Shown: positions 52,696-58,619 of the stretch, piece by piece | Layout: each line of letters opens with the position of its first letter | How positions within the stretch are numbered: position 1 is the first letter of the stretch | Source of the DNA: Nitrospirota bacterium | GTDB lineage: Bacteria > Nitrospirota > Thermodesulfovibrionia > UBA6902 > JAJYJJ01 | Length of the DNA: 64,000 bases | Assembly (NCBI GenBank): GCA_021789595.1 | Contig: JAJYJJ010000003.1 | Location: forward strand, 1-64,000 | Direction of reading: 5' to 3' | Made by a program: the position numbers and the translations under genes | Notes under the pieces: model-generated | Seen by the model: the letters and a program-made list of their open reading frames with translations, nothing else | Database searches by the model: none | What the model was told of the DNA's origin: nothing

Positions 52696-53460
52696 TTACC
52701 TGATGAGACTTTCAACAAGTCTTTTTAATGACTTCATCTCTTCGTAGATGACACTCAGGATAAAGGCTCTCAGGGTATTCAGGTCTCCTTTATTTGATTT
52801 TTGTAATGCAGTTATATATTCTGCCCGTCTTATAGGAGGAATAACCACAGGACAGTAGCCATTTTTCAAAGTCAGAATACTTAACAAAAGTCTTCCTATC
52901 CTTCCATTGCCGTCTGTGAAAGGATGAATTGCCTCAAATTCAGCATGCAGGTCACTTGCCCATTCAAGTATATGTTCGTCTTTAGCATTCTTATTTAAGT
53001 TTTCAATATGTTTTTTCATTAATTCAGAAACTTTCTGATGATCCGGAGGCAAATAATCAGTTCCGGTAATGATAACATTCTTCTGTCTGTATCGGCCTGC
53101 GTTTTCAGGGTCTATCTGTTGAAAAAAGAGCTTATGCAGGAATAAAACATCCTCCTCAGATATAGGTCTATCCAGCAAAGAATAAATATGATCATAAGCC
53201 TTTGCATGCCCTATAGCCTCAAAATGCTCTCTCAGGGATTTACCACCTATGGTTATACCATCTTCAATAATAACCTTTGTCTCTGACTCTGTAAGAGTGT
53301 TCCCTTCAATTGCATTGGATGCGTAGGTCAGTCCTATCCGATAGTAATCCTTAAGTTGTTTGACAACATGGTCAGGAAAAGGACGATAGCTGTCGAGGAC
53401 GGACTTGAGAGAGGCGATTTTATCAAGGATGTCTTTCATTTCTACAAGATGCGATTTCAT
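52696..53460 (-). CDS. Fic family protein with N-terminal inhibitory helix
   Basis: A 254-residue Fic protein, a probable AMP-transferase (or related nucleotide transferase). The active motif HPFTDGNGRIGR begins near residue 178. An auto-inhibitory motif S-x-x-x-E-G (SNAIEG, residues 48-53) places it in the class with inhibition inside the N-terminal part. Between them is HKLFFQQIDPENAGRYRQ, the flap region. It overlaps by 4 bp the end of the DUF2130 gene, so both form an operon. Targets are unknown. Confidence 0.93.
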   Translation of the reverse strand: MKSHLVEMKDILDKIASLKSVLDSYRPFPDHVVKQLKDYYRIGLTYASNAIEGNTLTESETKVIIEDGITIGGKSLREHFEAIGHAKAYDHIYSLLDRPISEEDVLFLHKLFFQQIDPENAGRYRQKNVIITGTDYLPPDHQKVSELMKKHIENLNKNAKDEHILEWASDLHAEFEAIHPFTDGNGRIGRLLLSILTLKNGYCPVVIPPIRRAEYITALQKSNKGDLNTLRAFILSVIYEEMKSLKRLVESLIR

Positions 53461-54751: not shown

Positions 54752-56725
54752 TTATTTAAGGCTTTCCAACTCAACATTGCTAAGTTGAACTTCATGGGCA
54801 ATTGCTGTAAATTCTGCCATATATCTGCTATGTAAGGCATAGAACTCTCCAATATTTAGATTTTCGTATTCCCATGGTTTTTGTTTCGCAAGTGCTTCTT
54901 GAATTTTATAGACGATGTTTTCTGATACTATTTCTGCCAATAATAATTTAAAATGGGGCATATTTTGTCCTTCATAATCTGGTTGAGGACCTAGGTATCT
55001 CTTTACAGAGGGATGACTTGCAGAAATTTTCAAATTGTTGGGGTTGTTAGGTGTATCCCATCTTGCTCTGGAACTCCCAAAAGATTCTGATACAATCTCA
55101 ATTGAAAGAGGAATGTCTTCGTCTGGCTTAGATTGAATTACTTTAACTTCAGTCTGAGCAGACCGTCCATGTATTGAGGCGGTTATTTTACCCTTTGCTT
55201 TAAGCCTTCTACTGTGAATAGTTACATAACCTTCAGCATAATTTCTTCCCTGAATAGGTCTAAGGCGAGCCTGGGGTTTAACAATTACAATGTCTTCACA
55301 ATCGCAATTAACTTCAACGGGTGTTTCTTCAGATACTACTTCTGGATATTTTGCACGCAAAACCAATTGTTTCTTACGACCTTCTCTCATATGATATAAT
55401 TCTCGCTCAAAAGCCAATCCATTAGGAATATCTATATCTTCTGTTTTACTTTCTACTACAGAGACTATTGCCTCAGCATTAATAAATCCATCGTAAAATA
55501 CAGTTATAATAGCACTGTCTGTCGGTTGAACTCCTTGAACTTTAAAACTACCAGTGAGAATTCCCTCACTGGTAGGACTTTTTGAAAGAAGAAATTCTGG
55601 AGTAATAATACGAACCCTGTCATCATCACAAGTTACTCTTGCCACCTCTTTTTCTGATACCCCTTCTTTCTTTTTCGCTCTAAATCCAAAGGTTTTAATC
55701 TCATTAACTGCAAGTATATAACTTGGAGGAAGGATTAAGACACCCGATTTAGCAAATGCTTTAAGTTCTGTTTTATCAAGTTCATTAGCAAATTCTTCTA
55801 ATTCTTCTACCTTATCTTGTATAAATTTGCTTGCAGCTCTCGCCAGTTTCTTCAACCGTTCTTTTGTTTCTTCATTTTCTATTTGAACTCTTTTAGCCTT
55901 TTCTTTTTCTTTGTCTTTGGCAATTAAGGCTCGTAAACTTTCAGTAGGTATTTGAAATAATGCCTTTGTAAAAGGATGATCTCTTCTTAGTCCGCCTTGT
56001 CTATTAGGGTCAATAAGAAGATTGGGGTTATTTTCTGGATGAGGTTGTTTGTCTTCTCTTCGTTTATCGAATTCTTTACAAATCTTATCAATGTGAGAAC
56101 AGGTTAGTTTGCCAAAATAAAAATGTGCATAATGGTCACTTTCAAATTCATTGCTAAAGAGTGTAATCTCATGAACTGCTCGCTCACCTTTTATTAAAAA
56201 ACCAGTTCTTCTAAACCGCTTATCATATGGGTCTTCAAGGGGTTCAGAATGTTTATAAATTATTAAATGTGCTGTAGCTCCTTGATAATCAGGAACTTCA
56301 AATTCTTCATCAATTATTTTTTCAGCAGGTGGGTCATTGTAAATAAGAGGGTCTAAAGTGTTTTCATTCAAGTTTCTTAAAAGAACCTTCTGTTCAGAAT
56401 CTTTATGCATTATATCTCTAAGTGCAAAGTGTTTAGGCAACTCACTAAGAAGTGTCTCATGTCGTGGAACTCCTCTAATATTTTGATTAACTTCTATAGT
56501 AACAACTGTGCCATTCCCTCTTAGAACCCCCAAGTTTTTGCGTATTTCGTCGGTAGCCTTAATAGAGGGAGTATATGGAACAAATTCCATGCTTGAAAGC
56601 ACTTCGCATTTATGGTAGAGGTTATCTTTAACTGACTCAAAAGTAATTTCCCCTATCGCTGCACAGTCTTTAGCACCCCTTCCCATAAATCCACGACTGC
56701 CGTCTTCACTTGTTCTGTCTCCCAC
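54752..56725 (-). CDS. GHKL-type ATPase, C-terminal part after frameshift
   Basis: The frame begins, after a one-base shift, with GDRTSEDGSRGFMGRGAKD, which contains the G-rich ATP-lid motif of the Hsp90/MutL/MORC (GHKL) superfamily. The downstream gene lacks its own ribosome site at the GTG start. About 650 residues follow with a charged helical segment near residues 260-310 and a beta-rich C-terminal half (VQGVQPTDSAIITVFYDGF), possibly Ig-like. The N-terminal ATP-site motifs lie in the other frame (56653-56979). Adding one A to the AAA at 56726-56728 would restore a ~740-residue protein. Bacterial MORC/MutL-like ATPases are known from predicted restriction systems; this one is not assignable to a named system by eye. 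Confidence 0.75.
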   Translation of the reverse strand: MGDRTSEDGSRGFMGRGAKDCAAIGEITFESVKDNLYHKCEVLSSMEFVPYTPSIKATDEIRKNLGVLRGNGTVVTIEVNQNIRGVPRHETLLSELPKHFALRDIMHKDSEQKVLLRNLNENTLDPLIYNDPPAEKIIDEEFEVPDYQGATAHLIIYKHSEPLEDPYDKRFRRTGFLIKGERAVHEITLFSNEFESDHYAHFYFGKLTCSHIDKICKEFDKRREDKQPHPENNPNLLIDPNRQGGLRRDHPFTKALFQIPTESLRALIAKDKEKEKAKRVQIENEETKERLKKLARAASKFIQDKVEELEEFANELDKTELKAFAKSGVLILPPSYILAVNEIKTFGFRAKKKEGVSEKEVARVTCDDDRVRIITPEFLLSKSPTSEGILTGSFKVQGVQPTDSAIITVFYDGFINAEAIVSVVESKTEDIDIPNGLAFERELYHMREGRKKQLVLRAKYPEVVSEETPVEVNCDCEDIVIVKPQARLRPIQGRNYAEGYVTIHSRRLKAKGKITASIHGRSAQTEVKVIQSKPDEDIPLSIEIVSESFGSSRARWDTPNNPNNLKISASHPSVKRYLGPQPDYEGQNMPHFKLLLAEIVSENIVYKIQEALAKQKPWEYENLNIGEFYALHSRYMAEFTAIAHEVQLSNVELESLK

Positions 56726-56979
56726 TTTCTTAACCTCCGCATTTCATCCAAAGTCATTCCCTCTGCACGGTCTTTAACTATTATCTTTGAGTTGCCTTTG
56801 TATCTATGGTCAACTTCTATTAGAATTTGCCCATCTGCTTTACCCATACGGGAATAACTATCGTCTGAATTTGTTATAAGTTCCACTAATGCATCATATA
56901 CATCTCTGATAGCATATTGTGCTGTTAAATAACCATGTCGCCTTGTATAGTCAAGTGCTTCCGGAGATTGTGGTTTCAT
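56653..56979 (-). CDS. GHKL-type ATPase, N-terminal fragment
   Basis: A 108-residue fragment whose first ~90 residues carry the Bergerat-fold N box (DALVELITNSDDSY, near residues 29-42) and the G1-like VKDRAEGMT. AGGAGG lies directly before the ATG. After RLRK the frame diverges into an unrelated tail, while the true continuation is found in the overlapping frame of the next gene. Together they describe a single GHKL ATPase. It lies 13 bp after the 207-residue partner gene. Confidence 0.7.
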   Translation of the reverse strand: MKPQSPEALDYTRRHGYLTAQYAIRDVYDALVELITNSDDSYSRMGKADGQILIEVDHRYKGNSKIIVKDRAEGMTLDEMRRLRKWETEQVKTAVVDLWEGVLKTVQR

Positions 56980-56992
56980 ATTTCAAACCTCC

Positions 56993-57616
56993 TTAATAGA
57001 TCATTAATTCTTTGAAAACTTGCTCGCACTCATTAATAAATGAAATGATTGATTTATCCTGTGTTAATTCAGCCTGTGCCTTTAACTTTTGAAAATTCTT
57101 AGAAATTACCTCTGGTGCCGCATCTGGACGGCATAACAGCATATCTGTAAACTCATATTTATTTACATTTTGCAAAGAACCATCTTGAAGATATTTTTGA
57201 TAGCATTTTTCGCCTTCAAGTTTTTTAATAATCTTACTTACTTCAGGGCGTTTAACAGGTTTATCAGTTATCTTTAAAGCTTCCTCTATTCGTTTTTGAT
57301 TGCTTAAAATCCATTTAACCCCCTCAGGAGTTAATCTCCATCCATCGGTTTCTTTGCCTACTGCTGTAGCACCTGCCCTACCTTTAAGCAATATAGGACC
57401 CTTATTTTTTTTGCTTTTCAAGTTTTTCAATGTAACTCGTGCAATTTCTTTATCTGGAAACTTTTTAAAATATTTTGACTGTGTCCACGAAAACTTTTCT
57501 GGAGATAACTTAAAGCATTCCATTGCTATATCTTCTGTATGGATTTTTTTCTCTATACCACCTAACTTAAATATAGCGTAAATAACAATATCATTATTTG
57601 ATAATTCCTGAGTCAT
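56993..57616 (-). CDS. Hypothetical partner protein of the GHKL ATPase, with winged-helix-like start
   Basis: A 207-residue soluble, lysine-rich protein of no recognised family. Its N-terminal half (IVIYAIFKLGGIEKKIHTED, GWRLTPEGVKWILSN) looks like a winged-helix DNA-binding domain. The C-terminal half (NKYEFTDMLLCRPDAAPEVI, AELTQDKSIISFINECEQVF) is helical. GGAG lies 6 bp before the ATG at 57616, favoured over the ATG at 57628. It ends 13 bp before the ATPase gene. The two genes form a compact unit, reminiscent of ATPase/specificity pairs of defence islands, but the function is unknown. Confidence 0.75.
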   Translation of the reverse strand: MTQELSNNDIVIYAIFKLGGIEKKIHTEDIAMECFKLSPEKFSWTQSKYFKKFPDKEIARVTLKNLKSKKNKGPILLKGRAGATAVGKETDGWRLTPEGVKWILSNQKRIEEALKITDKPVKRPEVSKIIKKLEGEKCYQKYLQDGSLQNVNKYEFTDMLLCRPDAAPEVISKNFQKLKAQAELTQDKSIISFINECEQVFKELMIY

Positions 57617-57634
57617 CGGTTTCTCCATATTTTT

Positions 57635-57724
57635 TCACAGCTTAAATCTCTTCCTTTTCCCCGCCAGAAACTTTGCCTTTGTCAGTTTTGACTGTTTATC
57701 TATCTCAGAGAAAATCTTATTCAC
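57635..57724 (-). pseudogene. Fragment of the small conserved protein, duplicated downstream of ORF6N
   Basis: Thirty codons (GTG AAT AAG start to a stop) encode NKIFSEIDKQSKLTKAKFL and a KRKRFKL end. This is a close copy of the C-terminus of the 75-residue protein at 58331-58558 (NKIFFEIDKQLKLIKAKFL, RERFKL). The ORF6N gene runs into the fragment and ends 8 bp inside it, so its last residues may derive from the recombination. The two segments are ~90 bp long, in direct orientation. Confidence 0.75.
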
Positions 57725-58330: not shown

Positions 58331-58558
58331 TCACAGCTTAAACCTCTCCCTTTTTCCTCCGAGAAACTTTGCCTTTATTAATTTCAATTGCTTATCAATC
58401 TCGAAGAAAATCTTATTTACCTCCCCCTCTGTATACTCATATGAACTCTTATTTGAGCAATTTCCGAGTATTCTGATTTTCTCAAGGATTTCATTTGTCC
58501 GCTTAGAGGCGAGTCTTTTAAACCGTTCATGCCTGCTTTCCTGTTTTTCCTGCTCCAT
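58331..58558 (-). CDS. Small conserved helical protein
   Basis: A 75-residue, charged, helical protein (RHERFKRLASKRTNEILEKI, then ILGNCSNKSSYEYTEGEVNK, IFFEIDKQLKLIKAKF). I do not know a named family. A proper promoter (TTGATA, 17 bp, TATTAT) would start transcription near 58584, so the ATG at 58558 (GGGAG upstream) is used rather than the more distal ATG at 58612. Its last ~28 codons are duplicated at 57635-57724. Confidence 0.75.
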   Translation of the reverse strand: MEQEKQESRHERFKRLASKRTNEILEKIRILGNCSNKSSYEYTEGEVNKIFFEIDKQLKLIKAKFLGGKRERFKL

Positions 58559-58590
58559 AAATCTCCCGAATATAGTGGAATTATGGTCAA

Positions 58591-58619
58591 ATAATATCAC
58601 AGCTATATACAAATATCAA
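58591..58619 (-). promoter_or_regulatory. Promoter of the small protein and ORF6N genes
   Basis: On the minus strand TTGATA (58614-58619) and TATTAT (58591-58596), with exactly 17 bp between. The inferred transcript begins ~26 nt before the ATG at 58558. Confidence 0.75.

Follow-up and report, generated by a model that had tools for sequence, protein, structure and literature searches.

GHKL ATPases connect topoisomerases, mismatch repair, Hsp90 and the eukaryotic MORC silencers, and in Topo VI-B, MutL and MORC the binding of ATP closes the protein as a clamp. Iyer, Abhiman and Aravind (2008) described MORC and paraMORC1-5 as GHKL ATPases of restriction-modification systems and traced the ancestry of MORC to prokaryotic restriction systems; the paraMORCs carry family-specific extensions, with ExxxH in paraMORC2, REase in paraMORC3, TIR in paraMORC4 and HxH in paraMORC5 (PMC2292703). 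VcSduA is a GHKL-nuclease (Shedu) fusion whose anti-phage activity has been measured (PMC12137116). A GHKL protein and a winged-helix protein also occur together as CapK, an HTH-STAS-GHKL kinase, and CapS, a STAS-winged-helix repressor, a pair that heads immune operons (PMC13373217). A literature search restricted to open-access papers, and hence weak evidence, turned up nothing nearer than these three studies. WonAB, considered as a candidate for the nearest system, was set aside, being an ABC and not a GHKL system.

The window (the whole stretch of 64,000 nucleotides of a Nitrospirota contig analysed here) encodes a winged-helix protein and a GHKL ATPase as neighbouring genes (Table 1). This pair is real, conserved, mobile and absent from the defence and family libraries searched (PADLOC, NCBIfam and Pfam). 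No model of PADLOC or NCBIfam fits either protein and Pfam gives a weak HATPase_c_3 match only, in agreement with the initial annotation, which could assign the pair to no system that it could name. The patch that holds the pair runs from the Fic gene (52696) to a small gene (58612) and has a G+C content of 0.35-0.41 (53-59 kb) versus 0.45-0.48 in its near flanks. On the minus strand the order is small gene, ORF6N, a tail copy of the small gene, winged helix, ATPase, DUF2130 and Fic, the ORF6N gene sitting between the small gene and the pair, with its stop codon inside the tail copy. The AT-rich patch with Fic, DUF2130 and ORF6N genes noted earlier is thus borne out by both base composition and Pfam. 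The Fic gene recurs at the same place in other genomes, and the accessory genes around the slot behind the small gene are alike between genomes (75-86% identity between loci for Fic, 68-77% for ORF6N and 75% for DUF2130); the pairs at the slot are 25-43% identical to the window pair, which makes the pair the variable module. DUF2130, which lies directly behind the ATPase also in locus L009, is a possible nuclease partner in these two loci. The window protein holds GTDI...WETK, by our reading a putative PD-(D/E)xK-type nuclease signature. As a dedicated nuclease partner DUF2130 was rejected, because it is found in 58 of 296 genomes and is common without the pair.

Table 1. Features of the locus in the window, and plasmid records carrying the small gene
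Feature	Coordinates	Strand	Basis or remark
Fic gene, 254 aa, end of foreign patch	52696..53460	-	Pfam E 1.2e-21; PADLOC PDC-S04 E 3e-38
DUF2130 gene, 422 aa	53457..54725	-	Pfam E 6.9e-71; 26 bp behind ATPase
Remainder of GHKL ATPase, 657 aa	54752..56725	-	Lid GFMGRGAKD, GNGT, transducer, helical stalk, beta domains, C-terminal helices
GHKL ATPase N-terminal part, 108-aa ORF (first ~85 codons in right frame)	56653..56979	-	N-box ELITNSDDSY and DRAEGM
Frameshift point AGGTTAAGAAAGTGGGA, one base short of the frame of all relatives	56720..56736	-	ORFs and alignment
Winged-helix protein P0001, 211 aa	56993..57628	-	ORF and translation
Tail copy (3' end) of the small gene, ~90 bp	57634..57724	-	Between ORF6N and winged-helix gene
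ORF6N-domain gene, 185 aa	57717..58274	-	Pfam ORF6N E 4.5e-31; PADLOC PDC-S05 E 4e-56
Small gene, 93 aa from TTG, about 75 aa from likely Met at 58558	58331..58612	-	Companion gene, also conserved ahead of the pair in other phyla
Plasmid records (L166-L172)			CP029775, NZ_CP118719, NZ_CP019642, NZ_CP118613, NZ_CP117870, NZ_CP068014, NZ_CP117691

The ATPase had been taken for a protein of ~740 residues encoded within 13 bp of the winged-helix gene. The GHKL coding sequence is present and begins 13 bp after the winged-helix ORF on the minus strand, but it is not one ORF, and the ~740 residues result from joining two frames (ORFs of 108 and 657 aa). The two frames cross in AAGAAAGTGGGAG near 56725, with a deletion-type shift of one base at about 56725-56731. 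Intact homologues are uninterrupted across this point, for instance that of locus L007 (756 aa, about 43% identical to the window copy). Programmed frameshifting was judged unlikely, given that there is no good slippery heptamer at 56725 and that the relatives keep one frame. Because the 657-aa part is free of further stops, the break is either recent or an assembly error, and the window gene is accordingly either a truly broken allele or an artefact of assembly. Broken copies are not unique to the window, the ATPase of a WOR-3 locus (L030, 9947-11822) being likewise split over two frames.

The GHKL superfamily motif set, composed of the N-box (E..N..D), D-x-(G/A)-x-G, a glycine-rich lid and the G2 GT motif, is present in the family, and in the window copy it is divided between the 108-aa and 657-aa ORFs. 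The former has a weak Pfam match to HATPase_c_3 (E 4.5e-5, under the family cut-off), and the domain layout of the latter was taken from an alignment with 32 relatives and from a model of the intact L007 relative. Residues E33, N37, D40, D78, G82, G109, R110 and G111 are invariant in all ATPase members that cover them, and the G2 GT motif is mostly retained. Since the catalytic residues are invariant, the ATPase is predicted to hydrolyse ATP. According to the alignment, it occurs in two forms, short (~620-650 aa) and long (~720-760 aa), of which the long one has an extra beta domain; the window ATPase is of the long form. The AlphaFold2 model of the L007 ATPase has a pLDDT of 84.7 and a pTM of 0.56, hence an uncertain placement of domains, and comprises a GHKL domain (1-190), a transducer (~205-345), long helices (348-411), two beta domains (~425-520 and ~533-627), which by our own reading appear Ig-like, and two C-terminal helices. 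When this model was compared with the PDB by Foldseek, Topo VI-B of M. mazei came first (E 9e-13, 654-681 columns), followed by Hsp90 and gyrase B, all with low TM-scores of about 0.2-0.5. The model, at its pTM of 0.56, and these three matches indicate a GHKL fold followed by a transducer/S5 domain. By sequence, the best PDB match was MORC3 (E 0.0022). These results agree with the earlier description of a GHKL ATPase of the Hsp90/MutL/MORC sort with a beta-rich C-terminal half.

Regarding the partner, the 207 residues given initially are those counted from an internal methionine (Met5) of the 211-aa ORF, and the winged-helix-like character proposed for it is reproduced by a confident AlphaFold2 model (pLDDT 88.8), with a winged helix at the N-terminus and a helical domain at the C-terminus. 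The model has helices at 11-21, 31-41, 52-56 and 60-71 and strands at 81-84 and 96-99. Its fold matches in the PDB are weak (best E 0.34), and winged-helix proteins (PadR, MarR, forkhead and RIO2) make up most of the top ones. Seven of the 33 winged-helix partner members match the N-terminal family of HVO_A0261, with a best E of 3.9e-5. A Topo VI-A-like role of the partner was rejected for want of an invariant tyrosine, and a nuclease domain was recognised in neither P0001 nor the GHKL ATPase.

Relatives were sought in one genome per species (84,980 species) with an alignment of four ATPase sequences as the query; the scan rests on two short conserved peptides and is not a census. It returned 43 ATPase loci from a wide range of phyla, among them Bathyarchaeota, Nitrososphaerota, Nanoarchaeota and Pacearchaeota. 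Nine of them are distant relatives of the Thermoleophilia type, with 24-26% identity and without a winged-helix partner. The others span more than 10 phyla, archaea included, and a winged-helix gene adjoins the ATPase in all 34, upstream in 32 and downstream in two (L014 and L046); four close pairs of loci (L012/L016, L018/L019, L013/L024 and L038/L039) bring the independent number nearer 30. Over 29 loci the distance matrices of the two proteins correlate with r = 0.92, a value reached in none of 5,000 permutations and to which shared descent alone would add. The homologous pairs therefore do travel together, as the initial annotation had suggested asking of their neighbourhoods, and the homologues are neither single genes of core genomes nor members of a described family. 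The ATPase is present in only 6 of the 231 genomes of the source genome's class, which together with the foreign G+C content supports mobility. Transfer is favoured also by the nearest relatives of the window copy, which are found in a Deltaproteobacterium, a Roizmanbacterium and another Nitrospirota genome. Queries with window-type and short-form ATPases gave no match to the pair on plasmids, and no copy was found in viral contigs; the only plasmid case, from Ensifer, is a divergent GHKL/winged-helix relative. Gene transfer has carried the pair, as a fixed two-gene unit, into many phyla of bacteria and archaea.

The gene neighbourhoods uphold in part the idea of defence islands. The context is often of restriction or defence type, but several relatives are flanked by housekeeping genes, and no nuclease or methyltransferase is seen near them. 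N6/N4 methyltransferases gave eight matches among 131 genes within 3 kb of 29 pairs versus zero for the 115 genes lying beyond 4.5 kb (Fisher p 0.008). This enrichment is supportive only, as the two families were chosen once methylases had already been noticed, a single protein could be counted under both, and near and far genes are non-independent. The far set contains one cytosine methyltransferase and one type I R gene, so a count of any restriction gene is less lopsided than that of N6/N4 enzymes. In L029 and L073 (genome G132) the methylase gene overlaps the winged-helix gene, the enzyme being of Eco57I type by Pfam in L029 and assigned by sequence likeness in L073. The methylase gene of L027 begins 20 bp after the ATPase, and in L022 a methylase with an HNH domain comes after the pair. 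Many pairs are solitary among housekeeping genes, such as L018/L019, which lie inside an ATP synthase operon, and also L012/L016 and L013/L024. Loci L015 and L020 have a common third gene, a stretch of which resembles sigma-70 region 4.

A further gene upstream, encoding a protein of ~75 aa, is often part of the unit. This small gene is found just upstream of the pair in L006, L007, L008, L030, L032 and L047, and probably in L025; in the window, L017 and L011 it is upstream with ORF6N in between. Besides the full gene, copies of its tail separate stacked genes, one in the window, three in genome G284 and one in G406, and in G371 (C89, L070 608-641) a tail of ~30 bp is all that remains. The copies outside the window (L112 9048-11535 in G284; L069 5503-6442 in G406) fall with the window copy in a range of 27-90 bp. 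Elsewhere in the genome of the window the small gene occurs once more in decayed form, interrupted by three stops (G000:C33, 190426-190623). A 27-bp end motif, with up to three mismatches allowed, occurs in 29 of 230 class genomes and its reversed control in 0 of 230; in seven of the 29, copies lie within about 2 kb of one another. The window tail is 80% identical to the window's full gene over the last 66 aligned bases but 86% identical to the G067 sequence, and, because tails are not closest to the local full gene, they may have arrived together with their modules. The arrangement looks as if modules had been inserted behind the small gene. The slot in sister genomes holds an EcoO109I restriction-modification pair (E 1.7e-87), a TIR protein, other HATPase_c_3 proteins and an HNH nuclease, as well as type IIG-like and toxin-antitoxin genes, named by reading of the sequence only. 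In G246 it holds a homologous winged helix (E 2.5e-22) and a divergent GHKL (E 2.4e-8). This locus (L150, 1418-6147), made up of the small gene, the winged helix and the divergent GHKL with a glycine-rich linker, is a second family of the same plan. Downstream of its divergent GHKL lies the gene for a 651-aa protein that contains a stretch resembling sigma-70 region 4 and is locally similar to the third gene of L015 and L020.

Seven plasmid records (Table 1) have the small gene upstream of a protein of 450-800 aa. On the Ensifer adhaerens plasmid NZ_CP118613 the order is small gene, GHKL relative and then winged-helix relative (E 2.4e-8 and 1.8e-7). The six others encode a different family, GHKL-like by motifs (E..QN..DA and GGSFGIG) in complete copies, not by profile match. 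All seven records have an annotated methyltransferase, Vsr, REase or Shedu gene in the flanks retrieved; six carry dcm, Vsr or REase, and Ensifer has a DNA methyltransferase. DUF6339 genes are often present at the plasmid small-gene loci, which come from distant phyla. Tentatively, the small gene could be a general companion and anchor for several GHKL-ATPase defence modules, which would be exchanged and stacked behind its 3' end, leaving tails of 27-90 bp. The winged-helix/GHKL pair would then be one such module type, and the small protein a shared working subunit or regulator.

Adjacency in 34 of 34 loci, co-divergence (r = 0.92), invariant catalytic residues and restriction/defence contexts point to a function of the MORC/paraMORC kind. 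On balance, the pair probably forms the core of a module for DNA interference that has spread horizontally and acts as an ATP-driven DNA clamp, in the manner of the MORC/paraMORC GHKL ATPases known from restriction-modification systems; an anti-phage or defence function is what we infer for it. The winged-helix protein, perhaps with the ~75-aa protein, would contact or select DNA. By analogy with Topo VI-B, MutL and MORC, binding of ATP would shut the GHKL-transducer dimer around the DNA, and its ATP state would be relayed to a partner by the stalk and beta domains. With a methyltransferase or nuclease gene next to the pair, the clamp could gate the attack on foreign DNA; a pair on its own could trap or compact DNA, or enlist a nuclease from another locus. 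The main weaknesses of the clamp and restriction reading are the core pair without a nuclease, the many solitary loci, the absence of the MORC S5 motif and the broken window copy. If the reading is true, this widespread branch, with its winged-helix partner and tiny companion, would offer a small and tractable model for the recognition of foreign DNA by such clamps, and the small gene would help to locate further modules of this sort in phyla that have received little study.

Alternatively, the pair could serve in signalling or transcription control, with the GHKL protein as a sensor kinase or switch acting on the winged-helix protein, which would repress its own or adjacent defence genes. CapK-CapS, found at the head of immune operons (PMC13373217), likewise combines a GHKL with a winged-helix protein, the winged-helix gene of the pair usually comes first, as regulators often do, and Fic, ORF6N and toxin-antitoxin genes lie around. 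We nevertheless regard such a role as unlikely, for CapK and CapS have STAS domains, to which neither the winged-helix protein nor the ATPase gave a match. Moreover, the ATPase is far larger, its transducer, stalk and beta domains are of Topo VI-B/Hsp90 type, and it has retained the ATPase N-box Glu; a constant downstream effector operon is absent. Less probable still is that the pair serves housekeeping or repair in the carrier lineages, in a topoisomerase-like, mismatch-repair-like or chaperone role, its genes having been moved by ordinary transfer. The rarity of the ATPase within the class, the low-GC patch of the window, the recurrence of accessory, restriction and toxin-antitoxin neighbours, and a partner without the Topo VI-A-type invariant tyrosine all argue against it, even though the nearest folds are those of housekeeping enzymes and some loci within housekeeping operons are kept in related species (L018/L019, L012/L016 and L013/L024). 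The least probable explanation is a toxin-antitoxin or abortive-infection pair, with either the ATPase or the winged-helix protein being toxic when its partner does not restrain it. This would suit two co-inherited, short-spaced or overlapping genes at a slot that carries toxin-antitoxin genes in other genomes, but neither protein has a known toxin fold, gene order differs in two loci, and the partner ORF stays open in the window copy with its broken ATPase.

Among described systems, topoisomerase VI subunit B is the best whole-ATPase fold match, sharing the GHKL domain, transducer, stalk and a beta domain; in contrast, identity is about 10%, the Topo VI-A partner (TOPRIM and catalytic tyrosine) is absent and no H2TH was identified. 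CapK-CapS resembles the pair in joining a GHKL with a winged-helix protein near immune genes (PMC13373217), and differs in its STAS domains, found in neither protein here, and from the topoisomerase/Hsp90-type architecture of an ATPase of 620-760 aa. VcSduA shares with the pair a GHKL ATPase module with a clamp-like middle domain, which in VcSduA has a defence role (PMC12137116). Its nuclease (DUF4263) lies in the same chain, unlike the pair, which has no nuclease domain or Shedu model match: DUF4263 (Pfam) and Shedu (PADLOC) gave no match in 33 members, which also set aside an identity with Shedu/paraMORC3. As for MORC itself, the motif GhXhhpXXRhl of its S5 domain (PMC2292703) has no occurrence in the 33 aligned ATPase members, which by this motif fall outside the MORC family. 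REase, TIR and HEPN domains had no Pfam match in the 33 members, whose alignment lacks an invariant His, the paraMORCs being compared by description. Further differences from MORC and paraMORC1-5 are the lack of a recognised fused nuclease, TIR or HEPN domain, the dedicated winged-helix partner and often a ~75-aa companion, the lack of consistent helicases, and the many loci without restriction genes. Shared with them are a GHKL domain followed by an S5/transducer-type domain and a C-terminal extension, a sporadic distribution in bacteria and archaea, and, at part of the loci, methyltransferase and endonuclease neighbours (PMC2292703). Rather than standing without precedent, the unit falls within an established kind, that of the restriction-associated GHKL ATPases (PMC2292703), among which the pair most likely represents a previously undescribed branch of the MORC/paraMORC type.
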